A stretch of 64,000 nucleotides of DNA from an uncultured Phascolarctobacterium sp. (lineage in GTDB: Bacteria > Bacillota > Negativicutes > Acidaminococcales > Acidaminococcaceae). Shown in pieces: positions 9,143 to 50,529 of this stretch. Location of the stretch: positions 186,001-250,000 of the forward strand of contig CASDXO010000008.1 of the NCBI GenBank assembly GCA_949285135.1. Direction: 5' to 3'. The position numbers and the translations under genes were made by a program. The stretch's first letter is position 1. Each line of letters begins with the position of its first letter. Under the pieces are notes generated by a model. That model did no database searches. It saw nothing but the letters and a program-made list of their open reading frames with translations, and was not told the origin of the DNA.

Positions 9143-9156
9143 TACTTCACCCCCTT

Positions 9157-11867: not shown

Positions 11868-11888
11868 ATTCTCACCTCTTTCAGCCAA

Positions 11889-11922
11889 CAAAAAAGCACC
11901 TGCAAAACTAATTGCAAGTGCT
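11889..11922 (-). terminator. Rho-independent terminator closing the early operon
   Basis: On the minus strand AGCACTTGCAA and TTGCAGGTGCT form an 11-bp stem (one G-U pair), followed by six T residues. It lies between the RinA/ArpU-like regulator and the HNH gene, so it separates early from late transcription. Late expression would need readthrough or a promoter in the 110 bases around it. Confidence 0.85.
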
Positions 11923-12007
11923 TAATGATTTTCAGTTTTCTTTTTCACTAACATATTACCACAGCCAAAAGCAAAAATCTGTATACATTTTGTGCAATCC
12001 ACGCCGT

Positions 12008-14253: not shown

Positions 14254-14257
14254 AGCA

Positions 14258-15406: not shown

Positions 15407-15425
15407 AAACCTCTACCTCATAAAT

Positions 15426-15491
15426 AAAAGGCTGCCTATACTTCCCAGCATATTTGTTCTGCGCCGTTGCTTGTATATAGTGCAGCCTTTT
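15426..15491 (-). terminator. Long-loop hairpin with T tail upstream of the clamp gene
   Basis: On the minus strand AAAAGGCTGC and GCAGCCTTTT form a 10-bp stem, with inner complementary CTATA/TATAG pieces and a loop of about 46 bases. TTATTTA follows. It may attenuate transcription into the clamp and replication genes. Confidence 0.5.
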
Positions 15492-15495
15492 TAAA

Positions 15496-15834
15496 CTATA
15501 TATTTTTTACCCTCCACATCTTAGTTTTTTCCGGCGGTTTATTATTCCAGCGCCTAATCATTTCTTCTGTGGAAACCTTTGCCTGCAGGCTGTTACCACA
15601 TTTACACCGGATATATTTATAGCTGCTGTTATAGCCCGTTCCCTTAGTAATGTGTACCTTACGTCCACAGCTACGGCAGCGAGCCAGCTCTGCTACACCA
15701 AACATATCCTGCTGATCAGGCAGGCAGAAAAAATAGTATTCTGCTTCTGCATGCAGGCCCACACAACAACTACAAGGATAATAGTCAATACTGCGCTTAC
15801 TGTACCAGCGGCAGTTAATGCAATCACTGTTCAT
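15496..15834 (-). CDS. Lar-like zinc-ribbon phage protein
   Basis: This 112-residue protein carries two Cys clusters: DCINCRWY...PCSCC at the N terminus and CRSCGRKVHITKGTG...CKCGNSL in the second half. It ends with a segment containing STEEMIRRWNNKP. The second part, CxxCG-CxCG followed by an Ala/Glu helix and WN, is the pattern of the Lar (restriction alleviation) zinc proteins common in phage early regions. A role in softening host restriction is therefore plausible, but it is not shown for this sequence. It overlaps the LysM gene by 11 bases. Confidence 0.65.
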   Translation of the reverse strand: MNSDCINCRWYSKRSIDYYPCSCCVGLHAEAEYYFFCLPDQQDMFGVAELARCRSCGRKVHITKGTGYNSSYKYIRCKCGNSLQAKVSTEEMIRRWNNKPPEKTKMWRVKNI

Positions 15835-16093
15835 GGCACATCATCCTGAAAACAAGCTTCTGCCCTGGAACGATATATCTGCTAAACGCATTATCCCGTT
15901 TAGCTTCGCAGTAAATCTCACGCCAGTCCCGCTCATCCTGATACTGATATTTCAGCTCACGGATAATACCATGGAGCGTATCTCCCTGCTTCACATAAAC
16001 TGTAACAGGCTGATACCTTACCGGCTGCTGCGTATACTGAAACAGACAGTAACAGCCTGCAAGCAGCAATGTACTTAAAATAAAAGCTTTCAT
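15824..16093 (-). CDS. Membrane-anchored LysM protein (YneA-like layout)
   Basis: An 89-residue protein with an N-terminal hydrophobic segment (KAFILSTLLLAGCYCLF) and a LysM-type repeat: VTVYVKQGDTLHGIIREL, then ERDWREIYCEAKRDN and YIVPGQKLVF. A short anchor plus one LysM matches cell-division suppressor YneA of Bacillus in architecture. It would be on the outer face of the membrane, touching peptidoglycan. The Gly-Cys in the hydrophobic part (LLAGC) could be a lipobox. The start at 16093 has GGGGAGTGATAAA ahead. The longer frame to 16198 crosses two hairpins and is rejected. Division arrest or receptor masking are guesses. Confidence 0.7.
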   Translation of the reverse strand: MKAFILSTLLLAGCYCLFQYTQQPVRYQPVTVYVKQGDTLHGIIRELKYQYQDERDWREIYCEAKRDNAFSRYIVPGQKLVFRMMCHEQ

Positions 16094-20728: not shown

Positions 20729-22186
20729 ATGAGTGCCACGGATAACTTATCAAAATGTCAGATATTTACCCCTCAAGGCATAGTGGAAGACCTTTTGAAT
20801 TATGTACAATACAAAGAAAATATTGCAAATAAATATGTCTTAGAAAACTCATGTGGTCATGGCAATATTTTACGAGAAATTGTAAGAAGATATATAGTTG
20901 ATGCAAAAAACAACAACTTATCAACACAGGAGATAAAGACCGGCCTCGAAACATATATTCACGGTTATGATATTGACGAAAATTGCTGCACTGCTTGCGC
21001 ACAAACTCTTTCTGAGATAGCAGCTGAATATAATATTTTTGATGTTAATTGGAATATTTATCATAAGGATTTCTTACAAGAATATATAAATAATCAAATA
21101 ACAATACAATTTGACTATATTATATCTAATCCCCCATATATAAACTATACGGAGTTAGATATTAAAAACAGACAGTTTGTAAGAGAAAATTTTGAATCCT
21201 GTACAAAAGGTAAATTCGATTATTTTTATCCTTTTGTAGAAGCAAGTTTAAATCTTTTAGCATCAGCAGGTCAGTTATCATTTATTGTTCCCAATAGTAT
21301 ATTTAAAAATGTTTATGCAGAAAAACTCAGAGATTCAATAAAACCATTTATCAAAACAATTATTGACTATTCCAGTCGTTCTCTTTTTGATAAAGCTTTA
21401 ACCTCCTCTGTTATCTTTACATGTCAAAATGGATGTAATAACTCATCCTTAGAATATGTCAATGCGGTTAATAACTTCAATTTCAACATAAACAAAAATA
21501 TGCTTGGACAAAAGTGGATGTTTATTAACCAACAACCACCGAATAGAAATATAAGATTTGGCGATAGATTTCATGCTTCAACAGGTATTGCAACACTCCT
21601 AAATAAAGCTTTTTTAATCAAAGAAGAAGATTTAGAAGACCTAAACGACCTCTATTATATATTAAATGTAGGTCAACAGACATTTAAGATTGAAAAAGCT
21701 TCACTTAGGCCAGCTGCCAGTCCAAAGTCAAAAACTTATGAAAAGAACTACTATATCATCTATCCATATAAACGTCTTCCGAATAATAAGTACGCTAAAT
21801 TTGAAGATGTTTATGAATTTAGAGCAGCATTTCCACGTACCGCTGAATACCTTCAAATATACAAAACTAAACTCTTACAGAGAAAATCAGATAACTCTGC
21901 AAGGTGGTTTGAATATGGGCGTTCTCAAGCCTTACGCAGCATAAACCAGGAAAAGTTGCTATTATCTACAATAATTACCAATAGTGTGCCTATATACAGA
22001 ATTGATGCAGAAACTGTTCCTTTCACAGGTATCTTCATCACTTCACCGCAAGGAAATAATTTAGAAGATGCGACCAAAATTTTAGAATCAAAAAAGTTTC
22101 TGGATTATATTAAAGTTATTGGCATAAACGCCAATGGAACTTCTAAACGCATTACAGTAAAAGACATCAATAATTTTATTTTATAG
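20729..22186 (+). CDS. N6-adenine DNA methyltransferase, Eco57I/TaqI-like
   Basis: This 485-residue enzyme should transfer methyl groups from S-adenosylmethionine to adenine. Motifs are QIFTP at residues 11-15, the AdoMet loop VLENSCGHGNIL at about 37-48, and the catalytic SNPPY at 133-137. A helical region and a target-recognition domain occupy the C-terminal 200 residues (STGIATLLNKAFL, and later FTGIFITSPQGNN). There is no nuclease domain in the protein, so it is not a type IIG fusion. It is the first gene of a tight rightward cluster with a GHKL/histidine kinase protein, a receiver and an HNH nuclease. It would supply the self-marking half of a restriction-like system. A good GGAG ribosome site precedes it. 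Confidence 0.88.
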   Translation: MSATDNLSKCQIFTPQGIVEDLLNYVQYKENIANKYVLENSCGHGNILREIVRRYIVDAKNNNLSTQEIKTGLETYIHGYDIDENCCTACAQTLSEIAAEYNIFDVNWNIYHKDFLQEYINNQITIQFDYIISNPPYINYTELDIKNRQFVRENFESCTKGKFDYFYPFVEASLNLLASAGQLSFIVPNSIFKNVYAEKLRDSIKPFIKTIIDYSSRSLFDKALTSSVIFTCQNGCNNSSLEYVNAVNNFNFNINKNMLGQKWMFINQQPPNRNIRFGDRFHASTGIATLLNKAFLIKEEDLEDLNDLYYILNVGQQTFKIEKASLRPAASPKSKTYEKNYYIIYPYKRLPNNKYAKFEDVYEFRAAFPRTAEYLQIYKTKLLQRKSDNSARWFEYGRSQALRSINQEKLLLSTIITNSVPIYRIDAETVPFTGIFITSPQGNNLEDATKILESKKFLDYIKVIGINANGTSKRITVKDINNFIL

Positions 22187-22197
22187 GTGGGTTTATT

Positions 22198-24549
22198 ATG
22201 GCTGAAATAAATTTCCAGATTTCATCACGTGCTACTGTATTACTTGGCCGTGAAAATATAGCAAAAGCTGAAGGTGCCTTAATAGAATTAATAAAAAATA
22301 CCTATGATGCAGATGCTTCTCTTTGCTATATATTATTTGATACAAAAAATGACTGTCTTTACATTATTGATAACGGTACTGGTATGTCTGAAAATACCAT
22401 CCAAAACAACTGGATGGTCATTGGAACAGAAAATAAACGAATAGACTATATCTCTGAAAAAAAACGTATTCGGTCTGGTGAAAAAGGTATAGGTCGCTTT
22501 GCATTAGACAGATTAGGTAGTGTTTGTGAACTATATACCAAAACAACTACATCAGACAATGTTCTTTACTGGAAAGTTAATTGGTCTGACTTTGAAAAAT
22601 CAAACCAAATGATTAATGAAGTTAAAGCTGAGTTAGAATACAAGTCATTGTCTTTTACTGAAGCTCTTCCCTCCTGCTTAAAAGAAAACCTGAGTAATAT
22701 CAATGCGCAAATTTTAGAAAACTTTGAAAATCATACTAATATCGAGTTTAATACTGGTACTATTATCAAAATTTCCTCTCTGCGAGATGATTGGACTGAA
22801 AAAAAATTACAAGACTTAAAAACCAGCATGGGTTATTTAATTCCAGCAATAGTTGAAAATGATGAATATAACATAGTATTACAAGATTCTCCCACTGCAG
22901 AACCTTTATTAAGACAAAATAATATACAAGATGAATATGACTATAGAGTTTCAGCAACATTCACTGGTGAGCAGTTTGAATTAACTATTTATCGTAATGA
23001 ATATAACTTAAATATAATGCCAGACAAATTATTTGAAGAGGAGCTTTTTAAAAATTTCCCTTATAGAAAATGTGATTTTGAACAAGGGTATTTTAAGAAA
23101 ACTTACTCTATTCAAGAAATGTTAGGACTTCAAGAAAACGATCCTGGTAATTTAATTGAAAAGATGAAAGCCATAGGCTCATTTAAGTTTGAATATTATT
23201 TCATGAAACAATATGTTACTGATAATCACATCAATACATTTTTCTACAAGCCTATAAGTAAGCATAGAAAAGAATGGTTATCTCATAATTATGGCATAAA
23301 GTTATACAGAGATAATTTTATAATAAGACCTTATGGTGAACCAAACTCAGATTTTGCTGACTGGCTGAATTTAACTTCACGTAACGCTGCAGATCCTACC
23401 GGTATTGGTCATAAAAGGAGAACTTGGAAAGTATTAAATAGTCAAAGTAATGGTATAGTTTATATTTCCAGATTTAAAAATAAGTTAATTGCTGATAAAT
23501 CAAGCCGTGAGGGTATTATTGATAATGAATATTATTCTTTGTTTAAGAATTCACTTATTGCTATTATAAATAAATTTGAGAAAGACAGAGCTGAAATCGG
23601 CTATGCCTGCAAGCTATATTATGATAAAACCCAAGAATACGAGCAAGCCAAAAAAGATGCCGATGAATTTATAAAAAAATATAAACGTGAAAAGAAACGA
23701 AAAACTAATAATAATACTAATAATGCTAATTCCAAGGCAAATGATGAAGATAAACATACTGAAATTTTAGTTAAAGCTTTAGATGCCCGTAAACAGGAAG
23801 CGGAAGATTTACTTTCTGAATTGAAATTAATGAGAGCTTTATCAACAAACGGCTTAATTACTACCTCTATTGTTCATGACTTACGTGGCCTTACTGGCCG
23901 TATAGCTTCACGATCCGAACAATTTGAAGAATTTATTGATGATAAAGACTTCTTACAAGAGCTTATTCAAGGATTAAAAACAGATGACAGATTTTTATTG
24001 GCATGGATAACTGTAATTACAACTCAATTAAAACGTGATAAACGCACAAGAAAATTATTAAACATATACAACGCAATTACCTCATCAACAAATTTAATAA
24101 AATCAATTTTAACGCAGAAAAATGTTAAACTAACTCTCACATCAAAAGATAGAAATTTTAAATCACGATTATTTCAAACAGACCTTGATGCTATTTTATA
24201 TAATCTAATAATCAATTCTTGCGAAGCGTTTGAACGAGATTGCATTATTGATAAAGAAATATGCATAGATCTTGAGTTAAAAAGCGATTATTATGTTATT
24301 CATTATTCAGATAATGGCAAGGGTGTTTCTAAGAGTTTTGAAAATAAATATGATATTTTCAAGTTTTCAACAACTACTAAAACTGATAGTAATGGTAACA
24401 AAATCGGTTTAGGCTTAGGTATGCATATCGTTGCTACTACTATTGAAGAATACAACGGCAAATACGTCTTAGTAGACGAAGATTCTCGTCCAGGTTTTAA
24501 ATTAGACATAATAATACCACTAACAGGAAGTGCAAATAATGGAAAATAA
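22198..24549 (+). CDS. Dual GHKL ATPase protein: Hsp90/MutL-like N half, histidine-kinase C half
   Basis: A 783-residue protein with two ATP-binding modules. The N-terminal GHKL fold has E30/N34 in ALIELIKNTYDADA, the DNGTGM box at 58-63 and GEKGIGRFA at 94-102, as in Hsp90, MutL and MORC. The region to about 500 resembles the middle domains of such proteins. A Lys-rich linker (about 490-525) leads to a dimerisation/phosphotransfer helix with SIVHDLRGLTGRI (H560). A second HATPase domain follows, with N673 in LIINSCEAF, DNGKGV at 705-710 and GLGLGMHIV from 737. There is no membrane segment. It overlaps the receiver gene by 11 bases, the obvious phosphotransfer partner. It is probably a cytoplasmic sensor that clamps DNA or a phage product and then phosphorylates the receiver. 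Confidence 0.85.
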   Translation: MAEINFQISSRATVLLGRENIAKAEGALIELIKNTYDADASLCYILFDTKNDCLYIIDNGTGMSENTIQNNWMVIGTENKRIDYISEKKRIRSGEKGIGRFALDRLGSVCELYTKTTTSDNVLYWKVNWSDFEKSNQMINEVKAELEYKSLSFTEALPSCLKENLSNINAQILENFENHTNIEFNTGTIIKISSLRDDWTEKKLQDLKTSMGYLIPAIVENDEYNIVLQDSPTAEPLLRQNNIQDEYDYRVSATFTGEQFELTIYRNEYNLNIMPDKLFEEELFKNFPYRKCDFEQGYFKKTYSIQEMLGLQENDPGNLIEKMKAIGSFKFEYYFMKQYVTDNHINTFFYKPISKHRKEWLSHNYGIKLYRDNFIIRPYGEPNSDFADWLNLTSRNAADPTGIGHKRRTWKVLNSQSNGIVYISRFKNKLIADKSSREGIIDNEYYSLFKNSLIAIINKFEKDRAEIGYACKLYYDKTQEYEQAKKDADEFIKKYKREKKRKTNNNTNNANSKANDEDKHTEILVKALDARKQEAEDLLSELKLMRALSTNGLITTSIVHDLRGLTGRIASRSEQFEEFIDDKDFLQELIQGLKTDDRFLLAWITVITTQLKRDKRTRKLLNIYNAITSSTNLIKSILTQKNVKLTLTSKDRNFKSRLFQTDLDAILYNLIINSCEAFERDCIIDKEICIDLELKSDYYVIHYSDNGKGVSKSFENKYDIFKFSTTTKTDSNGNKIGLGLGMHIVATTIEEYNGKYVLVDEDSRPGFKLDIIIPLTGSANNGK

Positions 24550-25270
24550 TACAATCATAATAGGAATATTAGATGATGATACCAGTAAAATTACCAATAT
24601 AAAAGGTCGTTTAAAGCACAAATATAAAACAGAAGAATTTAATGATAACGAGAAAATTTTTGCTTTTAAACAAATAGAATCATATAAAAACTATACAATA
24701 AAGATTATTAGTCTAACATTAGATGAGCATACCGATGCAAACTCAATAGTAGCAGAAGTTAAACAAAATAATATTGACTGTTTAATAATCGATTATAAAT
24801 TAAATAGTTTTGTATCTACTTATCTAAATAACGGCGTAGAACTATCTAAACAGATATTACAACTACTAAATGATTTCCCTTTGCTTATTTTAACTTCTTA
24901 TGAAGAAGAATTAAACCAAAAAGAAATTTTTGAACCATTTATGATAGTAGATTATATTGCTTTTACCCATTCTAAAAGTTATTCTTTAATGATTACTAAC
25001 AAACTAATTGACGCAGTTATATTCTACAATAAAAACCAAATTTCTCTCGAAGAAAAATTAAAAACCCTAATGGCCATTCCATATGAAAAAAGAAATGCTG
25101 ATATTGATTCACAAATATTAGAAATTGATTCAAAACTTGAGCATAGAATATGTGGTGAATCAGCTATACCTAAAAAACTAAAAGAAGACCTTAATGAAAA
25201 TAAATTTGAAGATCTCTTAAATAAACTTGATACTATAATACGAAAGTATGAAAATGATAATGGAAAATAA
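24539..25270 (+). CDS. Stand-alone receiver (response regulator) domain protein
   Basis: The 243-residue protein carries the receiver pentad: D12/D13 in IGILDDD, D85 in CLIIDYKLN as the phosphate acceptor, T119 in LLILTSYEEE and K146 in IAFTHSK. The first loop is about 30 residues longer than in CheY. The C-terminal 100 residues are helical with no DNA-binding domain, so output must be by protein contact. The ATG at 24539 follows AGGAAGTGC and overlaps the kinase gene. The gene end overlaps the HNH nuclease start in the same way (both junctions share ATGGAAAATAA), implying fixed stoichiometry. The likely job is to relay phosphorylation from the GHKL/kinase protein to the nuclease. Confidence 0.82.
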   Translation: MENNTIIIGILDDDTSKITNIKGRLKHKYKTEEFNDNEKIFAFKQIESYKNYTIKIISLTLDEHTDANSIVAEVKQNNIDCLIIDYKLNSFVSTYLNNGVELSKQILQLLNDFPLLILTSYEEELNQKEIFEPFMIVDYIAFTHSKSYSLMITNKLIDAVIFYNKNQISLEEKLKTLMAIPYEKRNADIDSQILEIDSKLEHRICGESAIPKKLKEDLNENKFEDLLNKLDTIIRKYENDNGK

Positions 25271-25853
25271 ATTTAGAGAATATACTCCTAAACATTCAGT
25301 ATTAAAACGAGAATATAAAAATTATACAACTTATAAAAAATATTTAATAAAAGATTTTCATCATCGTTGCGGTTATTGTCATGATCATGATAAGTTTTTT
25401 GGTGGAACTAGAAATTATCAAATAGATCACTTTGTTCCTAAAACAAGGTTTAGTGATTTAGAAACTAAATATGATAACTTAATATACTCTTGCCCTTTTT
25501 GTAACAGGTCTAAATGGGACAAGTGGGTTGGAACAACACCAGACGAAAATATTAAAGATAATAAAGGATTCATTCATCCATGCGATGATGATTATGAAAA
25601 GCACTTTATCCGTAATGAAAAATTTGAGATTATACCAACCGATGAAATTGGGCAGTATATGTATAAAGAATTAAGCCTGTATTTAAAACGCCATAGTGTA
25701 ATCAACTTTTTAGATAGGCTAGATTCAAAAATTGTTAAAATAAAAAAATTACAATCTGAAAAAAATGTACAGCTAACGGATGAAGAAGAAAAGGTATTTT
25801 ACAAAGCTTTATATCATTTTCATGACTATTTCAATGTACTAAACGATTATTAA
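25260..25853 (+). CDS. HNH endonuclease, PtuB-like, of the kinase/receiver cluster
   Basis: This 197-residue protein has an HNH core with a structural zinc site: C37/C40 in RCGYCHDH, catalytic D56-H57 in NYQIDHFVPK, N73, then C78/C81 and N82 in CPFCNRSKW. The pattern resembles HNH effectors such as PtuB of Septu, which work with an ATPase partner. The C-terminal part is helical and charged. Three in-frame ATGs exist (25248, 25254, 25260). The third corresponds to the coupled start used at the previous junction. It should be the DNA- or RNA-cutting effector of the cluster, held inactive until signalled. An ordinary restriction nuclease paired with the methylase is the alternative. Confidence 0.85.
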   Translation: MENKFREYTPKHSVLKREYKNYTTYKKYLIKDFHHRCGYCHDHDKFFGGTRNYQIDHFVPKTRFSDLETKYDNLIYSCPFCNRSKWDKWVGTTPDENIKDNKGFIHPCDDDYEKHFIRNEKFEIIPTDEIGQYMYKELSLYLKRHSVINFLDRLDSKIVKIKKLQSEKNVQLTDEEEKVFYKALYHFHDYFNVLNDY

Positions 25854-25868
25854 ACGGGATACTATACT

Positions 25869-26612
25869 ATGAATATCTTACCAAAAATTGACCAGTTATA
25901 TAATGAACTGCGCAGCCTGCGCCCTTTAAACGCTTCTGAGCTTAAACGGCTGCGTGATGAATTCGTCATCGAAACTACCTATAATTCTAATGCTATCGAA
26001 GGCAACACCCTTACCTTGCGTGAAACTGCACTTATCCTGCAGGAAGGTATCACCATTGCCGAAAAACCTCTGCGTGATCATCTCGATGTTATCGGCTTTA
26101 AAGATGCTTTTTACTATATGATTGATTTAGCCGGTAAAAACGAGCCGCTTACAGAAAAAGCTATCCTTGATATCCATGCATTGGTGCTGATGAACAACGC
26201 AGAAGCACGAGGTAAATATCGTCGAGTTCCGGTACAGATTTTAGGTGCTGCTCACACTCCCCCACAGCCTTATCTTGTACAACCTGCTATTGAACAGCTT
26301 TTACAAAACTATGCTGTATGGCAGCAGGAAAAACATATTATCGAAGCTGTCGCCCTGCTGCATCTTGAATTTGAAGCAATCCATCCGTTTATTGACGGCA
26401 ACGGCCGTACCGGCAGAATACTTTTAAACTTTGAACTTATCAAACATGGCCTACTGCCTGTTGATATTAAGTTTACTGATCGCCGTAAATATTATGACTG
26501 CTTTGACAGCTATCATACAAACAGCAAAAATCCGCAGGCATTAGTTGAACTGATTGCCGGTTATGAACAGGCAGAACTGCAGAAATATATTGATATTATC
26601 AAAATGCAGTAA
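25869..26612 (+). CDS. Fic family protein, class II (N-terminal inhibitory helix)
   Basis: This 247-residue protein has the complete Fic motif HPFIDGNGRTGR starting at H172, so AMP transfer (or related nucleotidylation) to a target protein is expected. The inhibitory motif S40-N-A-I-E44-G-N near the N terminus marks it as class II, auto-inhibited by a glutamate finger in cis. Base composition is closer to the host and structural genes than to the AT-rich cluster just upstream, so it may have a separate origin. It lies 15 bases after the HNH gene and 12 before a 70-residue gene. It might be cargo, toxin-like, or part of the same operon. Confidence 0.9.
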   Translation: MNILPKIDQLYNELRSLRPLNASELKRLRDEFVIETTYNSNAIEGNTLTLRETALILQEGITIAEKPLRDHLDVIGFKDAFYYMIDLAGKNEPLTEKAILDIHALVLMNNAEARGKYRRVPVQILGAAHTPPQPYLVQPAIEQLLQNYAVWQQEKHIIEAVALLHLEFEAIHPFIDGNGRTGRILLNFELIKHGLLPVDIKFTDRRKYYDCFDSYHTNSKNPQALVELIAGYEQAELQKYIDIIKMQ

Positions 26613-26624
26613 GAGGTATCAATC

Positions 26625-26837
26625 ATGACAAACAACCATGAAGAATTAAAAAAGATGCGCGAATATATAAAAACTTGTCATATTGGCAGCTTTTATGAAT
26701 TTGTTGATACTTGCGACAATCGACCAAGTTTAGAAGCCTGGTCAGAAATCCTGGATACTGATGCAGCTGCCTGCCAGATGATAAAGTCATATATAGAAAG
26801 CTATTCCCTATCAGACGACTTTAACCAATACGTCTGA
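26625..26837 (+). CDS. Small acidic protein behind the Fic gene
   Basis: A 70-residue acidic protein (NNHEELKKMREYIKTCHIGS, then DTDAAACQMIKSYIESYSLS) with no recognised domain. A GAGG ribosome site precedes the ATG, 12 bases after the Fic stop, so the two are probably co-transcribed. Small partners of Fic proteins are known as antitoxins in class I systems, but class II Fic proteins do not need one. A regulatory partner is therefore only a suggestion. No rightward terminator follows before the integrase. Confidence 0.6.
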   Translation: MTNNHEELKKMREYIKTCHIGSFYEFVDTCDNRPSLEAWSEILDTDAAACQMIKSYIESYSLSDDFNQYV

Positions 26838-26913
26838 TATCAAAATTTACTGTTTTTGACATATCACAAGCTGGTATTTATCAAAAACTCCTAAAACTGA
26901 AACATGAGAAAAT

Positions 26914-26944
26914 AAAAAACGCCCAGCGCGGCAACGCTGAGCGT
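26914..26944 (-). terminator. Leftward terminator between Fic unit and integrase
   Basis: Minus strand ACGCTCAGCG, loop TTGCCG, CGCTGGGCGT, then TTTTT. The stem is 10 bp with one G-U. It points away from the integrase, so it terminates leftward, not rightward, transcription. Confidence 0.75.
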
Positions 26945-27006
26945 CTGCAGTAAGTACGGCAATACTTGCTGCAAATGTAACAACCCACAAGCACAAGGCT
27001 GTGTAC
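26914..27006 (-). ncRNA. Candidate leftward small RNA with two hairpins
   Basis: A TATAAT (27018-27013 on the minus strand) could start a transcript near 27006. It would run through hairpin 26946-26973 (stem of 11 positions with one mismatch, loop TTGCCG) and end at the hairpin plus T run at 26944-26914. No open frame of note lies in it. The -35 is weak (AGTTAA at 17 bases), so the existence of the transcript is an inference from structure. Confidence 0.4.
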
Positions 27007-27033
27007 GCTAATATTATAGCATACACCAGCCTT
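26995..27033. repeat. Imperfect 16/17-base inverted repeat upstream of integrase
   Basis: AAGGCTGTGTACGCTA, loop ATATTA, then TAGCATACACCAGCCTT. The arms differ by one mismatch and one bulge. A third partial copy (AAGGCTGGTAT) lies at 27057-27067 over the integrase ribosome site. It could be an operator, or a hairpin controlling integrase expression. Confidence 0.65.
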
Positions 27034-27071
27034 AGTTAACTATACTCAAAATTAGAAAGGCTGGTATTTTT

Positions 27072-28610
27072 ATGTCCGAAATTAAAAGAGCTGTCATTTA
27101 TGCACGCTTCTCTTCTGATATGCAGCGTGAAGAATCTATTGAAGCGCAGGTACGTGCCTGCAAGGAATACTGCAGAAAGAAGCTGTATGTAGTTACCAAC
27201 ATCTACGTGGATGAAGCTAAAAGCGCTCGTGACGTTTTAAAACGTGATGCCTATAATCAGATGCTGGCAGACGCTATCGCCCATAAATTTGATGTCATTA
27301 TCTTTCATAAGATTGATCGTAACGCTCGTAATGAATTTAACTACTATACCTTTAAGCATACTCTCTCTACCCTCGGTATCGGCTACGAATATGCTGCCCA
27401 GAATATAGATTTTTCTCCGGAAGGTCAGATGATGGAAAGCATGCTCGTAGGCTTTGCAGCCTATTACAGCCGCAACCTTGCCAAAGAAACCAAAAAAGGC
27501 CTGAACGAAAACGCTTACAAAGCACAGTTTAACGGCGGCAAACCGCCCTTAGGCTATAAGATTGTAGATAAGCGCTATGTAATTGAGCCGACAGAAGCCG
27601 AAGCCGTAAAACTCATATTTTCCATGTATCTTGCCGGTCATGGTTATGGAGCTATAGCGCATGCTTTATCAGCTAAAGGCTTCCGTACTCGCGAAGGCAG
27701 AAATTTCGGCAAAAACAGCCTGTACGACATTTTAGGCAACGAGAAGTATACTGGCACCTATACGTTTAATAAAACCAACAGGAAGGAAAACAGACCGCGT
27801 AACATGCATGTTGACTCCCCTGCTGATGATTTTATCAGGATTGAGGATGCTATTCCGGCCATTATCAGCAAAAACGACTTTGCTGCAGCACAGAAAAAAC
27901 GTGCATTAAATAAAAGGCGTACCGCCAGCTATGCAGCTAAGGCTGTATATCTGTTATCCGGAAAAGTATTTTGCGGCTGCTGTGGCAGCGCGATGAACGG
28001 TCACAGAACAATGAGCAGAAATCATGAATACGTTTACTATGACTGCTCAAAAAAAGAGCGTGTAGCGGCAGAACATTGCCCTCAGGCACGTCTTAATCGT
28101 GACAGCCTTGAGAAATGGGTTTTAGAGGTAATAAAAAAAGAGATATTCTCCCCCGTTGCGAGGAAAAATATCTCTGAGCTTTTAACTAAAGAATATGATA
28201 AGTATGTACAGACCATACCAAAAGAAAATACCTCTCTTGCTTCTGATAAGGCCATGCTGGAACGCAGACTGAATAATTTATATACGCTGGTAGAAAATGG
28301 TGATGCAGATGAATTTGTACTTGCCAGAATAAATAAATTAAAAGCTGATATCAGAGCCGTTACAGAAAAAATATCTCAGCTGCAGAACATGAAAAATATT
28401 CCGCAGATAACTGAAAAAGAAATTTCTGATACTCTTGCAGCTCTGTATGAGCATATCACAATCAAAAAAGATGTAGAAAGCCGCAAAGCACTGATAAATT
28501 TATTTGTTGATAAGGTTATTGTAGAAAATAAAAAAATCTCTCTGCAGATAACCACAGAGAGAGTTTTAGGTTTGTCTGGTGCCGAAGGCCGGACTCGAAC
28601 CGGCACGTAG
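27072..28610 (+). CDS. Prophage integrase, large serine recombinase
   Basis: This 512-residue enzyme should integrate and excise the prophage. The catalytic domain has YARFSSD with S14 as nucleophile. A recombinase domain follows from about 150 (GGKPPLGYKIVDKRYVIEPT, then GNEKYTGTYTFNK). The zinc ribbon lies at about 300-340 (CGCCGSAMNG, then YYDCS and HCPQA). A coiled coil occupies about 385-450 and is needed for synapsis control. The stop codon lies inside the 3' end of tRNA-Leu on the opposite strand, so the last ten residues (AEGRTRTGT) are encoded by the tRNA sequence. Serine integrases seldom use tRNA genes, which makes this junction notable. The gene points outward at the prophage end. 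Confidence 0.93.
   Translation: MSEIKRAVIYARFSSDMQREESIEAQVRACKEYCRKKLYVVTNIYVDEAKSARDVLKRDAYNQMLADAIAHKFDVIIFHKIDRNARNEFNYYTFKHTLSTLGIGYEYAAQNIDFSPEGQMMESMLVGFAAYYSRNLAKETKKGLNENAYKAQFNGGKPPLGYKIVDKRYVIEPTEAEAVKLIFSMYLAGHGYGAIAHALSAKGFRTREGRNFGKNSLYDILGNEKYTGTYTFNKTNRKENRPRNMHVDSPADDFIRIEDAIPAIISKNDFAAAQKKRALNKRRTASYAAKAVYLLSGKVFCGCCGSAMNGHRTMSRNHEYVYYDCSKKERVAAEHCPQARLNRDSLEKWVLEVIKKEIFSPVARKNISELLTKEYDKYVQTIPKENTSLASDKAMLERRLNNLYTLVENGDADEFVLARINKLKADIRAVTEKISQLQNMKNIPQITEKEISDTLAALYEHITIKKDVESRKALINLFVDKVIVENKKISLQITTERVLGLSGAEGRTRTGT
28577..28610. other. Probable attachment site junction (attR/attL side)
   Basis: The integrase frame and the tRNA 3' end overlap in this interval, so the phage/host crossover lies here or just to the right. 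The other prophage end is outside the window, so the core sequence cannot be read by comparing the two ends. Confidence 0.55.
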
Positions 28611-28740: not shown

Positions 28741-29226
28741 TTAGAACATTACATCGCCTGGCTGATAATCAACAGTAGTTTTTACAAAAGCAATCTCATT
28801 ACAATAGGGATATTGTGGACAATAAACACATTCTTTCCAAACCTTTTGCGGCAGCTTTTCTTTGGCTGTTTCTATATAATCGCATTTAGAAAAGAATCCA
28901 GGCTGATAAGTTAGCGTAAAAAACATTTTTACGCCTCTTTCAATCCCCTCCTGCTCCAGTAAGGCAACTATCCTTCGCCCAATACCTGAACATTTCATAT
29001 CCGGGTCAACCGCGAGTGAACGAATTTCAGCAAGTTTATCCCAAACAAAGTGCAATGCGCCGCAGCCTATAAGTCTGTTATTTTCTACAGCTACAATATA
29101 ATCACGCAAATTTTCATATATGCTGTTGCGGGAACGCGGCAACATCAGCCCTTCACGGGCATAATCGTTTAAAAGCTTATGAATATTTTCAACATCACTG
29201 AATTTTGCAGCTCTATAGGTAATCAT
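28741..29226 (-). CDS. GNAT acetyltransferase, ArgA-like (N-acetylglutamate synthase type)
   Basis: This 161-residue enzyme has the GNAT core with acetyl-CoA loop region AEIRSLAVDPDMKCSGIGRR (residues about 68-87). It has the C-terminal features of the short ArgA-like group: TLTYQPGFFSKCDY, then a Cys/Tyr cluster CVYCPQYPYCNEIA. Members of this group make N-acetylglutamate for arginine synthesis, although some only acetylate other amino acids. The frame extends to a TTG at 29244. The ATG at 29226 is used because GGAGGAG precedes it. A consensus promoter lies upstream. It is the first host gene beyond the prophage. Confidence 0.8.
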   Translation of the reverse strand: MITYRAAKFSDVENIHKLLNDYAREGLMLPRSRNSIYENLRDYIVAVENNRLIGCGALHFVWDKLAEIRSLAVDPDMKCSGIGRRIVALLEQEGIERGVKMFFTLTYQPGFFSKCDYIETAKEKLPQKVWKECVYCPQYPYCNEIAFVKTTVDYQPGDVMF

Positions 29227-29256
29227 ATCGAACAACTCCTCCAAATATCTACTGAT

Positions 29257-29309: not shown

Positions 29310-30032
29310 TTATAAACGCTCATTAAGAATATCAGCAGCCGCACATAACGCTGCAATCATTGCGCTTGGTCTGGGCGGACATCCCGGAACTGTTATATCG
29401 ACCGGTACAATGTCGGCAGCACTGCCACAAATCGCATACGTGCTGCCATATGTAGCACCACCGCAGGCACAGGCACCACAGGCCATAACCAGCTTAGGTT
29501 CCGGCATGGCCTCATACGTCATGCGAAGAGCCTGCTCCAGATTACGTGTTACCACCCCTGTTACCATGAGCATATCTGCATGTCTGGGTGAAGCTACAAA
29601 AGCTATACCAAAACGATGCAAATCATATATAGGATTACTTAAAGCTCCCATTTCAAAATCACAGGCGTTACAGCTACCTGCATCAAGATGACGAACGTGC
29701 AATGATCTGCCTAATTTAGCAGTAATCATCTCACCTATCTGTACTTGCGTTTCTGTAAGTATACTGCCAAGTACTTCTTTATTACCATGCTGCAGTGCTC
29801 CCTGCATACAGGCTTCTACACACCGACCGCAGAAAATACATTTTTTATAATCTACTTCAGGCTTGCCATTAATCATCGTAATGGCCTGAACAGGACATAT
29901 CTCAGCACATTTACCGCAGCAGTCACAACTGTTTGAACATTGCAGCTGCCCTCTCATCCTGTTATGCCCGGTAAAAGAAATATTCTCTGTTACAATTCTT
30001 TTAGCTAAGATAGCTTCTATCATTTTCAGCAT
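29310..30032 (-). CDS. hyfI: Group 4 hydrogenase: ferredoxin-small subunit fusion (HyfH+HyfI-like)
   Basis: This 240-residue protein fuses two subunits that are separate in Escherichia coli. Residues 30-80 form a polyferredoxin-like domain with two [4Fe-4S] motifs (CDCCGKCAEICP and CIFCGRCVEAC). From about 105 it is the small subunit (NuoB/HyfI type) holding the proximal cluster, with Cys in GSCNACDFEMG, ACGACACGG and VPGCPPRPS. It passes electrons between a soluble donor and the catalytic subunit encoded just upstream. It is the last gene of the six-gene operon. The symbol names the larger half; the N-terminal part corresponds to HyfH/HycF. Confidence 0.85.
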   Translation of the reverse strand: MLKMIEAILAKRIVTENISFTGHNRMRGQLQCSNSCDCCGKCAEICPVQAITMINGKPEVDYKKCIFCGRCVEACMQGALQHGNKEVLGSILTETQVQIGEMITAKLGRSLHVRHLDAGSCNACDFEMGALSNPIYDLHRFGIAFVASPRHADMLMVTGVVTRNLEQALRMTYEAMPEPKLVMACGACACGGATYGSTYAICGSAADIVPVDITVPGCPPRPSAMIAALCAAADILNERL

Positions 30033-30043: not shown

Positions 30044-31549
30044 CTATCGGTCAAGGCATGCATAGCACAGCTCAAAGCTTTTATTAATCAGAGGAAAGTC
30101 TGGAATGATGTCACCCTGCACCGCTACTGTCAATGCAGGCCAGTTAGGATACGATGCAGAACGCACAAACAACCTGTCAATTTTTCCTGCTTCGTCCAAT
30201 ATAAGCCAGTGCAGGTTATCTCCACGGGCAGACTCACTTATACCCCAACTGCCTTCCAATGTTCTTAAGTTACCAAGGTCACAATGCAGCTCGCTTTCAG
30301 GTTCTTTTCTCAGCCTGCTGATTAACTGCTTTATCAGACGTATGCTTTCATATACCTCACCAACACGTACTTTAATACGAGCCTCTACGTCACCGGCAGT
30401 TTCAGTAATAACATTAAAGTCAAGTTCATCATATATACCAAAACCCATATCTTTCCTGCTGTCACGCAAACTGCCGCTGGCACGTGCACCTACACCGACC
30501 ATGGCCAGTTCAAAAGCCGTATTCTGCCGTATAATGCCGGTAGTGCGAATTCTGTTGACAAAATTATTTTGCTCCCACATGATGTGAACAATATCTTTAT
30601 ATTCTTTTTCCAGTTCTCGCAAAACATCGTCTATTTCTTCCATGCAGTGCTCGTCGACATCATGGTTTACACCGCCGGGAATAATCAATCCGCGCAAAAA
30701 TCTGTTGCCTGCCAGCATTTCATTTATCTGCATCAAGTATTCTTTCAGGCGGCTCCCCATACTGATAACAGGAGAAAACCCTACACCTGCACAGATATTA
30801 CCAGTATCACCAACATGATTATATAAACGTTCCATTTCAGCAGCCAATGTACGAATAAGCCATGCTCGTCTTGGTACCATGGCATCAGAAAGTTTTTCCA
30901 CTGCCTGACAAAAACTCAGGGTATTGGCAACACTGCAGGCACCGCAGATACGTTCCACTACAGGCAGTGCTTCCATGGGAGTTTTGCCTTCAACACTCTT
31001 TTCAATGCCACGGTGAGTATAAAACAGCCTGGCATCCAGCTGAAGCATTGCTTCACCAGCCTGACTGAAACGAAAATGTCCTGGTTCAATAATGCCGGCA
31101 TGAATAGGCCCGACAGGCACTTCGTATAATCCTTCGCCGCCGGAAGTAAGCATTTCGTACTGTCTGTTTCCTCTGACCTGAAAATCTACCGGATATTTTT
31201 TCAGTAACGGATGAAAATCTTCCGGAAACGATTCATGCAGTACCAACGGTCTAAGATCAGGATGCTCTCTTGGTATAAAACCAAACATATCATGCAGCTC
31301 ACGTTCATACCAGGCAGCCGCCGGCAGAATAGGCGTCAGAGAGGGATAGCTCAGGTCACTGTCCGCAGTAAATTCTGCTTTCAGAACATCCATATCTCTT
31401 TTTTCAGCATTATAAAACAAACAGTAAATAGCCAGCCCACCGCCATTCGGTGTTTCATCCGCACCAAACATGGCAGCCAGAGGATTTTTGCCTGCGGCAC
31501 TGAATATATTGGCAGCACCGCGTAAATTTTCCGGTTGTACCTGCAGCAC
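30044..31549 (-). CDS. hyfG: Group 4 [NiFe] hydrogenase large subunit, HyfG/HycE-like
   Basis: This 501-residue catalytic subunit has an N-terminal NuoC-like domain (about 1-125, with PAAAWYERELHDMFG) and a NuoD-like hydrogenase domain from GPIHAGIIEPGHFRFSQAGE on. The nickel ligands are ERICGACS at the L1 site and CYAC at the end. Two points differ from HycE. The usual His after L1 is Asn (ACSVAN). The C terminus stops directly at CYACLDR, with no extension for a maturation protease. The residue pair before the last Cys pair is EL rather than DP. It should reduce protons or oxidise H2 at the membrane arm encoded upstream. Confidence 0.87.
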   Translation of the reverse strand: MLQVQPENLRGAANIFSAAGKNPLAAMFGADETPNGGGLAIYCLFYNAEKRDMDVLKAEFTADSDLSYPSLTPILPAAAWYERELHDMFGFIPREHPDLRPLVLHESFPEDFHPLLKKYPVDFQVRGNRQYEMLTSGGEGLYEVPVGPIHAGIIEPGHFRFSQAGEAMLQLDARLFYTHRGIEKSVEGKTPMEALPVVERICGACSVANTLSFCQAVEKLSDAMVPRRAWLIRTLAAEMERLYNHVGDTGNICAGVGFSPVISMGSRLKEYLMQINEMLAGNRFLRGLIIPGGVNHDVDEHCMEEIDDVLRELEKEYKDIVHIMWEQNNFVNRIRTTGIIRQNTAFELAMVGVGARASGSLRDSRKDMGFGIYDELDFNVITETAGDVEARIKVRVGEVYESIRLIKQLISRLRKEPESELHCDLGNLRTLEGSWGISESARGDNLHWLILDEAGKIDRLFVRSASYPNWPALTVAVQGDIIPDFPLINKSFELCYACLDR

Positions 31550-31553
31550 GTTA

Positions 31554-33029
31554 TCACCTTCCTATTATCAATACCGCATGATTTAAAAGATTATTTATCC
31601 AGGGAATATTTTCAAACCCGGCACCAACAAAACACGTTAATAAAAGCAGTAATGCCAAAACAGGCGTATCAAGCCTGTCCAGCAAATCGCCCAGAGAAGG
31701 ACGGCGCGGCTGATCACACAACATACGCATACCATGGTAAAGGATGCCTATCAGTACTCCTGCCAATAAAATTATCAGCAGGCTGCCAACAAACCAATGT
31801 TCTTCTCTGAAAAGAGCCGTCAAAATATAAAACTTGCTGAAAAACAGCCCCATCGGCGGCAGTCCAAGTATTCCCAGCATACTGATGAGCCACAGAGTGG
31901 CCGTATGAGGTACCTCTTTAATCATACCATGAATACGCATCAAATTTCTGGTCTGGTATTCCTGAATAATGGTACCAGCAACATAAAATAAGACAAATTT
32001 TATTAATGCATGGCTATACATATGCAGCATAACTGCTTTTAAAGAAAAAGCAGTGAATACACCTACACCAGCTACCATAATACCAATATTTTCCATGGAA
32101 GAATACGCCAAAATACGTTTTACGTCACGCTGGACAACAACAAACGGAACAGCAACTGCCACCGTCAGGACGGCAAAAAACAGCAGCATACTGCTCATCA
32201 TCTCAACTCCTGCTGTCGGCAGAAGAATAACAAGATTGCGCAGCAGTACATATAAAGCGCAGCTGCATAAAGCTCCGGATAACATACCGCTGGTCAAAGA
32301 CGGTGCCTCAGCATAGGCATCCGGCAGCCAGGTGTGCATGGGAGCCATTCCAACCTTGGTCCCGTAGCCAATTAAAATAAATAAAAGTGCCATTTTTGTC
32401 AGCGATGAGTCAAGCACAGCCGCATGCTCATATAAATACAGCCAGCTGAGAGGATTGGCATTTCCCAGAGCATCAATCTGCGCATAATATAGTATCAAAG
32501 TACCTAAAAGAGCCAAACAGATGCCAACTGTACAAACCATAATATATTTCCATGTCGCTTCCAGTGCGCTGCGAGTAAATTTAAAGGAAATCAGTAAGGC
32601 TGATATTAACGTAGTAGCCTCAATAGCAACCCACATCAGGCCAAGATTATTTACCAGCAGTACGATAAACATGGTCCAGACAAACATCTGCATCAAGGCA
32701 AAATATCTTCCAGTCTGCAGCTGTTCGTTTTTTAAAACACCACTTTTTTCTTCCCGTACCAGATAGGAACGCGCTGTCCAGGTTGCAGCCAAATAAAGCG
32801 TGGTAATGATAATCAATACCCAGCAGTTTAAGGCATCCAAATAGAAATACTCACTGTTAAAAGGACGGGCAGGATTAAATTGCTGCAGCAGCATATAAAC
32901 TAAAACTCCTACCCCTGAAGCTGTTATCCTGTGCAGCCAGTGTAAAGAAGTATTGGAAAACCTGCCGCTTAAAGCAAGCGCCGCACATAAAGGCGGAAGA
33001 CATAGCAGTGCATAAATAAGTTCCAGCAT
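31554..33029 (-). CDS. hyfF: Group 4 hydrogenase membrane subunit, HyfF-like (Mrp-type antiporter fold)
   Basis: This 491-residue polytopic protein (about 13-14 hydrophobic segments) belongs to the NuoL/M/N and MrpA/D antiporter-like family. Conserved features are a Glu in LMWVAIEATTLISALLISFK, a Lys in GTKVGMAPMHTWLPDAYAEA and AYSSMENIGIMVAGV. These make the charged axis used for proton transfer. The product should pump protons in the membrane arm of the hydrogenase. It lies directly between hyfE-like and hyfG-like genes with 4-base gaps. Confidence 0.88.
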   Translation of the reverse strand: MLELIYALLCLPPLCAALALSGRFSNTSLHWLHRITASGVGVLVYMLLQQFNPARPFNSEYFYLDALNCWVLIIITTLYLAATWTARSYLVREEKSGVLKNEQLQTGRYFALMQMFVWTMFIVLLVNNLGLMWVAIEATTLISALLISFKFTRSALEATWKYIMVCTVGICLALLGTLILYYAQIDALGNANPLSWLYLYEHAAVLDSSLTKMALLFILIGYGTKVGMAPMHTWLPDAYAEAPSLTSGMLSGALCSCALYVLLRNLVILLPTAGVEMMSSMLLFFAVLTVAVAVPFVVVQRDVKRILAYSSMENIGIMVAGVGVFTAFSLKAVMLHMYSHALIKFVLFYVAGTIIQEYQTRNLMRIHGMIKEVPHTATLWLISMLGILGLPPMGLFFSKFYILTALFREEHWFVGSLLIILLAGVLIGILYHGMRMLCDQPRRPSLGDLLDRLDTPVLALLLLLTCFVGAGFENIPWINNLLNHAVLIIGR

Positions 33030-33674: not shown

Positions 33675-34559
33675 TTACTGCGCTGCAATAGCCAGCAGCA
33701 GCATAATACCGGCAGCAGCTAAATACACGCGTACCTTAAATAATCGCATCTTATTATTTAAGGTTTCCACTACAGCAACAAGAGCAGCAGAAACAATTAC
33801 CTTCAACAGTACCGGAATATCCAGCGGCAAATACAGCATGGAGAACAAAAGCAAAAATATCAGCAGTTTCAGCTGACTTGCCCAGTGAATAAGAGCCAGC
33901 AAGCGTCCTGAATATTCCAATGTCATACATTCATGAATCATTGTAAGTTCCAGATGGGTATCCGGATTATCTACCGGTATACGGCTGTTTTCTGCCAGCA
34001 ATACCAAAAAGAAAGCTAAGCAGGTCAAAACTCCGGCAACAGTAAGATTAACTTCACTGGGATCAAGTGACATTCCCCCCAGAAAAGTACTTCCTGTATG
34101 CAACACATTAGACAAAACAGCCAGCATTATAACAGGTTCAACAAAAGCCGCAACATATATTTCTCTGCTGCCGCCCATGCCGCCAAAAGCAGTCGCAGCA
34201 TCGAGAGATGAGAGCGCCATGAAAAAACGCCCTACAGCCATTATATACACAAATACAAACACATCTCCAAAAGATGCCTGCCCCCCGAATAAATTTGGCA
34301 GCATACAGGCAGCAGCTACTGTAGAAGCAAAATATACGCAGGGTGCAGCAAGAAAAATGATGCTCGTATACGGTGTCACAAAAGTTGGTTTACGCCACCA
34401 TTTATATAGGTCAAAATATTCCTGCAAAATACTCGAACCAACTCTGTTCTGCATAAAGGCTTTCAGTTTCTTAATAATACCTGCAATAAGCGGAGCAGTA
34501 AACAGCAGTAATACAGTCTGCAGCAGGCAATAACCAAAATCATTATAACTATTCATCAT
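33675..34559 (-). CDS. hyfC: Group 4 hydrogenase membrane anchor, HyfC/HycD-like (NuoH family)
   Basis: This 294-residue protein has about eight hydrophobic segments and the NuoH/HycD signatures. These are the amphipathic loop RVGSSILQEYFDLYKWWRKP and ENSRIPVDNPDTHLELTMIH, with the acidic residues that face the quinone-like or proton-access cavity. It connects the soluble hydrogenase module to the antiporter-like subunits. Its start overlaps the hyfB-like stop (ATGATG), so translation is coupled. Confidence 0.9.
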   Translation of the reverse strand: MMNSYNDFGYCLLQTVLLLFTAPLIAGIIKKLKAFMQNRVGSSILQEYFDLYKWWRKPTFVTPYTSIIFLAAPCVYFASTVAAACMLPNLFGGQASFGDVFVFVYIMAVGRFFMALSSLDAATAFGGMGGSREIYVAAFVEPVIMLAVLSNVLHTGSTFLGGMSLDPSEVNLTVAGVLTCLAFFLVLLAENSRIPVDNPDTHLELTMIHECMTLEYSGRLLALIHWASQLKLLIFLLLFSMLYLPLDIPVLLKVIVSAALVAVVETLNNKMRLFKVRVYLAAAGIMLLLAIAAQ

Positions 34560-36541
34560 TTATATATTGCCCCCCAAATCAACACTGCAATCATCGCCGC
34601 CATAACATAGCTTACATACAATCTTACACTGCCCTGCTGCAGTCGGCGCAGAAACGCCGATGATACAACAAAATATTTCTGCAACGGCAGATAAAGTTTT
34701 TCTGTAATCATATCGGGAATTTCCAGTTTATAAGACAATAAACGCCCAAAATACGGATGATCTTTACGTACATAAGAAACTTCACGCTTAGGCTTCAGCA
34801 AATAATCAAAAGCTCGTCGCAGCGGCTTGGAAAAACCAGTTGCCGAATACTGCTGTCGCGCAGTCGGCTCTGTACCGCAATTCCAGGTAATACTGCTGCT
34901 GACATATCTTTTTTGCGTCATGTGCACAACAACAACAAAGCACAGCACTGTAAGCACTGCAAACAACAGCAGCATATTACCGTAAGCAAGCAAGAGCTCT
35001 CCTCCGCTCTGCAACACATCAGCAATACCCGGCATATACACCGCTGTATCAGCGGGCAGTACCCTTCCCAACATAGTCAGCAATGGTGCCGGATAAATGC
35101 CCACCGTCAAAACTAAAACTGTGCTTATACCCATTGCCAGTAACATAAATCTGTCAGCTTCATGTGCCTCCTGTGCCTGTATGCTGCGTGCTCTGCCCAA
35201 AAAAGCAATACCAAAAAAGCGTACAAAACAGCCTAAAGCTAACGCCCCTGTTAAGCCAAGTAAAATAAAAGCCACAGAAGACCATAAACGTATATCCTGC
35301 CCATAACTGGTAGAAGCCAGTGTAATAAAGCTTTGCAGCGTCATCCATTCACCAATGAAGCCATTAGTCAGCGGCAAAGCCGCAAGTGCCATACAACCGA
35401 CAAAACAAAAAGCCCCTGTATACGGCAGTTTTTTCAGCAAACCACCAAATAATTCAAGATTTTTGCTGCCAGTAGCATGCATAATACTGCCGGCACTCAT
35501 AAACATCAGTACTTTAATGACGGAATGATTATAGCAGTGTACCAACGCTGCCATAAAACCTATAGTCCCCCAGTTATTGCCAGCTGTTACCTGCAGCAGC
35601 ATGCCGCAGCCAAAAGCAGCAAAAATAATGCCCATATTTTCTACGGAAGAATAAGCAAGAATCCTTTTAATGTCAGTTTCCATCTGCGCGTACAGAACGC
35701 CTAAAAATGCAGAAATAAGTCCTGCCAGCATTACTAAGATACACCACCAGTAATTCCATACAGGCACAAACGAGAATACAAAGCGACCAAAGCCATATAA
35801 AGCTATTTTCAGCATAACGCCGCTCATTAATGCGGAAACATGGCTTGGTGCAGCCGGATGCGCATTAGGCAGCCATACATGCAGCGGCACAAGTCCTGCT
35901 TTCAGAGCAAAACCGATAAAAGCAGCCACAAATACAACACTTCGCATTCCGTCAGCAAGTGTATTATTAGCCATATCAGCAAAAGCAAAAGAACTGCTGT
36001 GCGTTCCGGTTAGCAGAAAAGCAATCATAATAGCCGCCGTACCAATATGGGTCATTACCAAATACTGATAAGCAGCATTCCAGGTAACACGTTTTTCTGC
36101 TTCATGATTGACAAGCAGAAAAGAAGCTACAGCCATTACTTCCCAGAAAAAAAGAAAACTGAAAGCATCTCCCGCCAGTATTACAAAAACCATGGAACCA
36201 AGAAATAAATTCCATAAAGCACCCAGCATTCTAAGCCTTTTACCAAGATAACTCAGGGCATATCCCGCACCGTAAATGCTGGTAATAACTCCGGCACAGC
36301 CAGTAAGAAGCAGAAAGGCTGCACTCCATTTATCTCCCGTTAACGAATATGAACCCCAGCGCAAAGACTCTGTCTGCACAAAATCAAAAAGAATGAGCCC
36401 TGCCCCATATGCTGTGAGTGCACTGCCAAATATGGCAGCCAAGCTTGCCGTATAATGCGCTCCTTTTTGCCATCTATGTGGAAACAGCAGCGTAATTATG
36501 CCTATACTGTAACATAACGCTGCCAAGAAAAACAGATTCAT
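34556..36541 (-). CDS. hyfB: Group 4 hydrogenase membrane subunit, HyfB/HycC-like
   Basis: This protein of about 661 residues is the largest NuoL-like subunit, first in the operon. It has about 15 hydrophobic segments. Conserved elements are FFWEVMAVASFLLV with the key Glu, GFALKAGLVPLHVWLPNAHP with the Lys, and AYSSVENMGIIFAAFG. A soluble loop and a final membrane segment close the C terminus. It should take part in ion translocation coupled to hydrogen turnover. The ATG at 36541 has GGGGG seven bases ahead and is preferred over the TTG at 36556. The promoter lies 50-75 bases upstream. Confidence 0.9.
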   Translation of the reverse strand: MNLFFLAALCYSIGIITLLFPHRWQKGAHYTASLAAIFGSALTAYGAGLILFDFVQTESLRWGSYSLTGDKWSAAFLLLTGCAGVITSIYGAGYALSYLGKRLRMLGALWNLFLGSMVFVILAGDAFSFLFFWEVMAVASFLLVNHEAEKRVTWNAAYQYLVMTHIGTAAIMIAFLLTGTHSSSFAFADMANNTLADGMRSVVFVAAFIGFALKAGLVPLHVWLPNAHPAAPSHVSALMSGVMLKIALYGFGRFVFSFVPVWNYWWCILVMLAGLISAFLGVLYAQMETDIKRILAYSSVENMGIIFAAFGCGMLLQVTAGNNWGTIGFMAALVHCYNHSVIKVLMFMSAGSIMHATGSKNLELFGGLLKKLPYTGAFCFVGCMALAALPLTNGFIGEWMTLQSFITLASTSYGQDIRLWSSVAFILLGLTGALALGCFVRFFGIAFLGRARSIQAQEAHEADRFMLLAMGISTVLVLTVGIYPAPLLTMLGRVLPADTAVYMPGIADVLQSGGELLLAYGNMLLLFAVLTVLCFVVVVHMTQKRYVSSSITWNCGTEPTARQQYSATGFSKPLRRAFDYLLKPKREVSYVRKDHPYFGRLLSYKLEIPDMITEKLYLPLQKYFVVSSAFLRRLQQGSVRLYVSYVMAAMIAVLIWGAIYK

Positions 36542-36588
36542 CGTAATCCCCCGCAAAATTATTTGTTCACAATTATGACATATTTTAT

Positions 36589-50493: not shown

Positions 50494-50529
50494 AAATATC
50501 CCTCCTGTATTATATACCTTGACAACCAT

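Follow-up and report, generated by a model that had tools for sequence, protein, structure and literature searches.

A hydrogenase-like membrane complex of Phascolarctobacterium with four conserved pocket cysteines and no detected HypD

Complexes built around a hydrogenase-type large subunit differ in what they are thought to do with it. Group 4 [NiFe] hydrogenases are characterized in print by two motifs of this subunit, L1 (RxCGxCxxxH) and L2 (DPCxxCxxH/R) (PMC4378227). Enzymes of HydDB group 4f are described as H2-evolving in several papers, and a 2026 rumen study counts them among the energy-converting hydrogenases. For Jettenia ecosi J2, one 3b and one 4f enzyme are reported. The authors of the Desulfotomaculum ruminis genome describe an EhrL with four cysteines and suggest that it is possibly a true hydrogenase. 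The sulfane sulfur reductase MBS of Pyrococcus is a NiFe-free relative whose large subunit is derived from a hydrogenase. In the literature seen, no report was found that hosts of four-cysteine Ehr or group 4f complexes lack Hyp proteins, which is no proof that none has been printed.

A six-gene operon and its large subunit

The DNA considered here, the window, is a stretch of 64,000 nucleotides from an uncultured Phascolarctobacterium sp. On its minus strand, from 36556 to 29310, six genes follow one another in the order hyfB, hyfC, hyfE, hyfF, hyfG and fused small subunit, with a seventh gene directly downstream:

34556..36556, minus strand: HyfB-like antiporter-type membrane subunit, 666 aa; E139 and K219 conserved
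33675..34559, minus strand: HyfC/NuoH-like membrane subunit, 294 aa; PF00146, 107 bits
33034..33663, minus strand: HyfE-like membrane subunit, 209 aa; 73 bits, below the NCBIfam cut-off of 136
31554..33029, minus strand: HyfF-like antiporter-type membrane subunit, 491 aa; E137 and K225 conserved
30044..31549, minus strand: HyfG/EhrL-like large subunit, 501 aa, GTG start; NuoC-like (30 kDa) and NuoD-like (49 kDa) domains fused
29310..30032, minus strand: EhrS-like small subunit, 240 aa; NuoB-like domain to which two ferredoxin motifs of [4Fe-4S] type are fused
28741..29244, minus strand: GNAT N-acetyltransferase, directly downstream of the operon

There is no hyfD, and the equivalents of HyfH and HyfI are fused. 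Two antiporter-like subunits, a NuoH-like, a HyfE-like, a large and a small subunit encoded in one operon make up the gene content by which Ehr complexes are recognized. The order hyfB-C-E-F-G-small is the commonest among 136 operon loci, many of them cut by contig ends: it occurs exactly in 66, and in 15 more with the acetyltransferase. The latter is found at this position in those 15 of the 136 loci, mostly in close relatives, and probably lies outside the complex. The charged residues of the antiporter-like pump subunits HyfB and HyfF are nearly invariant, and the small subunit has proximal-cluster ligands of hydrogenase type (CNAC, C188 and C218), in the CxxC...C...C arrangement of group 4 [NiFe] hydrogenases.

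Beside the operon, at 20729-28610, lie ORFs resembling by eye a DNA methyltransferase, a HATPase-type protein, an HNH protein and a Fic protein, with a serine recombinase-like ORF after them (27072-28610, also by eye); this stretch looks like an inserted island, possibly related to defence. Further away, at 222-15406, lies a prophage-like block, in which ORFs resembling tape measure, capsid, portal and terminase genes were recognized by eye.

The large subunit matches Complex1_30kDa, Complex1_49kDa and NiFeSe_Hases of Pfam, each above its cut-off. It terminates in NKSFELCYACLDR directly before the stop codon, its final residues being FELCYACLDR, while E. coli HyfG continues for 32 residues beyond the shared DR. 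L1 reads ERICGACSVAN, with C202, C205 and Asn209, the last of which aligns with the His of CGICGFAH in E. coli HyfG, and the last cysteine pair reads FELCYAC (C495 and C498), with EL against DP in E. coli HyfG. Both CxxC motifs of a group 4 [NiFe] hydrogenase are present, and the printed L1 and L2 motifs are departed from at two points (Asn for His, EL for DP). The first-pass annotation of this DNA had noted the CYACLDR ending without a C-terminal extension, Asn in CGACSVAN for the His of HycE, EL for DP and the retention of all four cysteines, and was right on each of these points; the 501-aa ORF does end there.

Subunit 5 of E. coli formate hydrogenlyase (7z0s chain E) is the closest solved structure by sequence and again the top fold match of an AlphaFold model of the protein (mean pLDDT 85.9). 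The final residues have pLDDT below 50 both in this model and in a second one made from 79 sequences, so that the models are of no use for the geometry of the pocket. E155 aligns with the proton-transfer Glu21 of MBH and is present in 140 of 140 alignment rows, redundant rows included; it was rejected as proof of H2 chemistry, since the cysteine-less relatives L186 and L193 keep it as well.

Complex I ranks directly after formate hydrogenlyase in the fold matches, and Asn209 aligns with an Asn of the complex I motif, two points that favour a ferredoxin:quinone reductase, either a functional forerunner or a parallel of complex I. This reading is unlikely in view of the residues that mark NuoD. 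A nearly invariant Gly203 stands at the position of the quinone-site Tyr87, and a hydrogenase-like GPIHAGIIEPGHF makes up the His38 region, so that equivalents of Tyr87 and His38 are both lacking; moreover, the proximal cluster is of the CxxC type, against an adjacent CC in complex I (PMC7684303).

Maturation genes in the host and its relatives

The genome of the window (1.89 Mb, 13 contigs, 100% complete) contains one PF00374 match, the HyfG-like gene itself. Profile searches of this genome found no HypD, HypA or HycI, no HypF above cut-off (best 40.9 against 466.1 bits, from partial matches) and no HypE above cut-off (best match 3.2e-11). The partial HypF matches, far below the cut-off, fall in regions that HypF has in common with TsaC/YrdC and TsaD-type proteins. 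A second genome of the genus agrees on the absence of HypD, HypE and HypA, and in E. coli, used as a control, HypD and HycI were detected. Of the Hyp proteins that make the NiFe(CN)2CO centre of a group 4 [NiFe] hydrogenase, the search covered HypA, HypD, HypE and HypF; the first two were not found, and the last two not above cut-off. The first-pass annotation had named a complete lack of Ni-incorporation genes as the finding that would speak against it, and for this same set together with HycI such a lack is largely what was observed. At 48967-50529 the window also holds a group A [FeFe] hydrogenase-like ORF (TIGR02512 above cut-off), whose C-terminal stretch resembles rubredoxin by eye; it may allow the organism to deal with H2 in the absence of a NiFe enzyme.

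Counterparts of the large subunit, here called FELC proteins, occur in 64 of 150 related genomes (its own included) at identities of at least about 43%, and HypD was found in 88 of the 150 with one and the same profile. HypD is present in all 40 FELC genomes that have another [NiFe] large subunit and in none of the 24 that have no other; it therefore tracks other hydrogenases and not the FELC complex. The additional homologue is a PF00374 match at 1.7e-30 or better in 39 of the 40 HypD-bearing genomes and a fragment with 31% identity in the remaining one (G046). On the HypD-less side, 20 genomes have a single PF00374 match, and the second homologues of the other four (G075, G078, G093 and G130) were rejected as hidden hydrogenases, being NuoD-like without CxxC. 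Of the 24 FELC-only genomes, 15 reach a completeness of 97% or more, and G061 and G078 each consist of one contig. Neither HypA nor HypE rises above cut-off in any of the 24, and a Ni-only site served by HypA is accordingly not supported. Within the family of the window organism, HypD accompanies a different hydrogenase, with an EchE that has DPCISCxER as its ending, and the two often share a contig.

A further set of 47 genomes stems from 48 of the best 80 loci (of at least 582) of a contig scan, two loci sharing one genome, and comes without completeness figures. Among the matches listed, HypD occurs in 29 of them, all with at least two PF00374 matches, and 18 are without it. Of these 18, again among the matches listed, seven have the FELC protein as their sole PF00374 match (Anaerospora hongkongensis G153, Anoxybacillus sp. 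J5B_2022 G161, G170, G182, G188, G193 and Sulfoacidibacillus thermotolerans G194), six have a second, uninspected match (G150, G151, G168, G181, G195 and G196) and five have an apparent other hydrogenase (G171, G177, G178, G183 and G184). The absence of Hyp proteins is that seen in profile searches of draft assemblies, and draft genomes can miss HypD, as is evident from the last five genomes and from G056 and G058, two incomplete genomes with Ech where HypD was not found despite another [NiFe] hydrogenase.

The two incomplete genomes with Ech lend themselves to the view that the complex is an ordinary [NiFe] hydrogenase of group 4 whose Hyp genes were missed through assembly gaps or divergence. 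The four cysteines, the hydrogenase-type small subunit and the retained E155 agree with this view, as does the designation of related complexes as group 4f H2-evolving enzymes in the literature. It is nonetheless very unlikely, given that HypD is missing from every FELC-only genome, nearly complete and single-contig ones among them, that the profile concerned detects HypD in more than half of the relatives, and that HypA and HypE stay below cut-off in the same genomes. FELC genomes that do carry HypD could load the normal cofactor.

A hyp locus of another kind was met in the same survey. In genome G102 (C1:1336000-1352000, at 3232-15879 of this region, minus strand), hypF, hypD and hypE form a complete set amid nitrogenase-like genes, with two NifH-like genes, HydF and three genes resembling nitrogenase component 1 as neighbours. 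The four genomes of this family (G065, G095, G102 and G132) have HypD and HypE and no PF00374 match among those listed. The locus may represent a cofactor system, so far undescribed, in which Hyp proteins are employed in the absence of any NiFe hydrogenase, and a second HypD copy in G074, G090, G110 and G122 may be of the same kind.

Variation and selection in the FELC clade

Operon regions were read from 57 of the FELC genomes and the gene alone from four more, two genomes with the gene split over contigs being left out. The contig scan yielded at least 582 relatives from many phyla, the best 80 including Negativicutes, Desulfosporosinus, Anoxybacillus, Acidobacteria, Myxococcota, Chloroflexi, Planctomycetes and others; among these 80, the nearest named relatives of the window protein are Phascolarctobacterium MAGs. 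One of the two patterns of the scan was NKSFELCY, which biases it towards the motif, a bias from which the search of relatives is free. Together, the relatives and the best 80 provide 123 distinct FELC proteins.

None of the 123, among the matches listed, has a C-terminal extension. Close relatives with an extension, which the first-pass annotation had regarded as the sign of a truncation, were thus not encountered, and a truncated ordinary HycE was rejected. The EchE proteins of HypD-bearing relatives end at CxxCxER, likewise without extension, so that its absence cannot be taken as a sign of missing Ni. As to the earlier suggestion that no protease step is needed, it is consistent with the failure to find HycI, while the missing extension from which it started is nothing special.

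EL replaces DP in all FELC proteins. Among the matches listed, the cysteine pattern of the 123 is CCCC in 120 and SCSC in three, and at position 209, which has changed at least three times on the tree, 80 have His, 42 Asn and one Ser. The SCSC proteins (L072, L126 and L134), in which the first cysteine of each pair has become Ser and the second is kept, form one clade (G134, Anaerospora hongkongensis and Desulfosporosinus UBA8487) and, judged by sequence, are a natural intermediate towards cysteine-less Ehr. They may also recall a sulfur-compound reductase with an exposed proximal cluster, as in Pyrococcus MBS, a related complex that has lost the NiFe site and kept two of the four cysteines (PMC7684303). 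For the FELC complex such a function is highly improbable: catalysis by MBS depends on a proximal cluster with three cysteine ligands and a shortened loop, whereas FELC operons keep CNxC and two further cysteines (CNxC in 120 of 121 small subunits, C188 in 119 and C218 in 119).

In a tree of 111 rows, the FELC proteins join cysteine-less relatives from genomes G173, G200 and G201 and are separated both from E. coli HyfG and from the EchE found in the same family; the tree is a quick one with long branches, and the exact placement of the cysteine-less rows is unsure. These outgroups come from a phylum-wide search around G173 that covered eight genomes only; the cysteine-less L186 reads SGTS...FNLSYSG. 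Within these limits, the tree supports the distinct group 4 branch that had been proposed at first pass.

Over the 93 scored FELC rows of the tree, the presence of HypD changes at least 16 times, a figure that HypD genes missed in drafts would inflate, and the cysteine pattern changes once. All four cysteines are present in 35 of the 36 HypD-less tree rows, where 84 of 472 columns are invariant, and in 24 of the 24 HypD-less FELC genomes of the relatives set. Their codons in 20 HypD-less genomes are a mixture of TGC and TGT, with zero replacements and synonymous change only. The cysteines are therefore kept for a reason independent of HypD. The exchange of His for Asn was rejected as the key to lost maturation, since the HypD-less rows comprise 23 with His and 13 with Asn; Asn also stands at position 209 in seven HypD-bearing rows.

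Two explanations are touched by these data. A decaying remnant would account for the cofactor genes that were not found; this is almost certainly wrong, as the six-gene order is the commonest among the loci examined, conservation is strong and the cysteine codons change only synonymously. Purifying selection on catalytic-site residues without Hyp proteins would, on the other hand, suit a true hydrogenase that receives its cofactor by an unknown, Hyp-independent route. This is quite unlikely, because the operon has no recurring neighbour resembling a maturation factor and because the window's family has Asn in place of the L1 His and EL stands for DP throughout. The clusters that do recur near subsets of the FELC operons are ArsR-like, ferredoxin-like, RidA-like and serine dehydratase-like (names by eye); a maturation-like one was not found among them.

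A proposed function and the known systems

The evidence leans towards an ion pump of the Ehr or HydDB group 4f kind that resembles complex I and is fed by ferredoxin, with a pocket that does not hold a Hyp-built NiFe(CN)2CO centre. As far as its genes can tell, the complex of the window is unlikely to be a hydrogenase as usually understood. The first-pass annotation had thought of a different maturation or catalytic bias, which captures the deviation and understates it, since canonical [NiFe] hydrogenase function is itself in doubt. Electrons, probably donated by ferredoxin, would come in through the small subunit's two ferredoxin-type [4Fe-4S] clusters and cross the proximal cluster of this subunit to the four-cysteine pocket of the large one. 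The energy released would drive ions through HyfC and the antiporter-like HyfB and HyfF. No route to the Fe(CN)2CO unit is known without HypD, HypE and HypF, and it is simplest to suppose that in these hosts the unit never reaches the complex. In Hyp-less hosts, the window organism included, the pocket would hold something other than NiFe(CN)2CO, assembled without HypA, HypD, HypE and HypF, the simplest candidates being redox-active thiols or a metal held by the four thiolates. As final electron acceptor, something other than a proton is most likely, and HypD in other FELC hosts would serve their other hydrogenases. Against this proposal stands the rest of the active site, which is hydrogenase-like (four cysteines, proximal cluster and E155). 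Its extension to the whole cysteine-retaining Ehr/group 4f clade, whose members would then not be hydrogenases and would combine a Hyp-independent pocket centre with ion pumping and a non-proton acceptor, is offered tentatively, as a possibility of some weight.

Among the known systems, E. coli hydrogenase 4 and formate hydrogenlyase (HyfG, HycE; group 4a) have the same subunit types as the window complex. HyfG has the 32-residue extension, the L1 His and DPC, none of which is found in the window protein, and its host has HypD and HycI, neither of which was detected here. The FELC complex probably belongs to HydDB group 4f (EhfE of Desulfosporosinus orientis, Jettenia ecosi, Desulfitobacterium hafniense): J. 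ecosi J2 carries a FELC protein (L169), which falls in the FELC clade together with proteins of Desulfosporosinus members other than D. orientis. This group is annotated as H2-evolving, whereas the Hyp pattern argues against H2 chemistry in many hosts; the pattern, which is no proof, points the other way and would call the annotation into question. Matches to group 4f are used to deduce H2 metabolism from genomes and metagenomes, and such deductions need a second look if the pattern holds. Pyrococcus MBS has two of the cysteines only and a proximal cluster with three cysteine ligands (PMC7684303), against four cysteines and CNAC, C188 and C218 in the window complex. With Ehr (Geobacter; D. ruminis Desru_3260-3265), the window shares the same six-gene set, with NuoL-like, NuoH-like, HyfE-like, large and small subunits, and FELC proteins form a clade with the cysteine-less Ehr-type L186, L193 and L187. 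Most Ehr members are without the metal-binding cysteines that would be NiFe ligands, while the window protein keeps all four. Between hydrogenases and complex I there is thus a series of natural intermediates, with four cysteines and Hyp proteins, four without, two, and none, in which the replacement of the NiFe site becomes directly testable.
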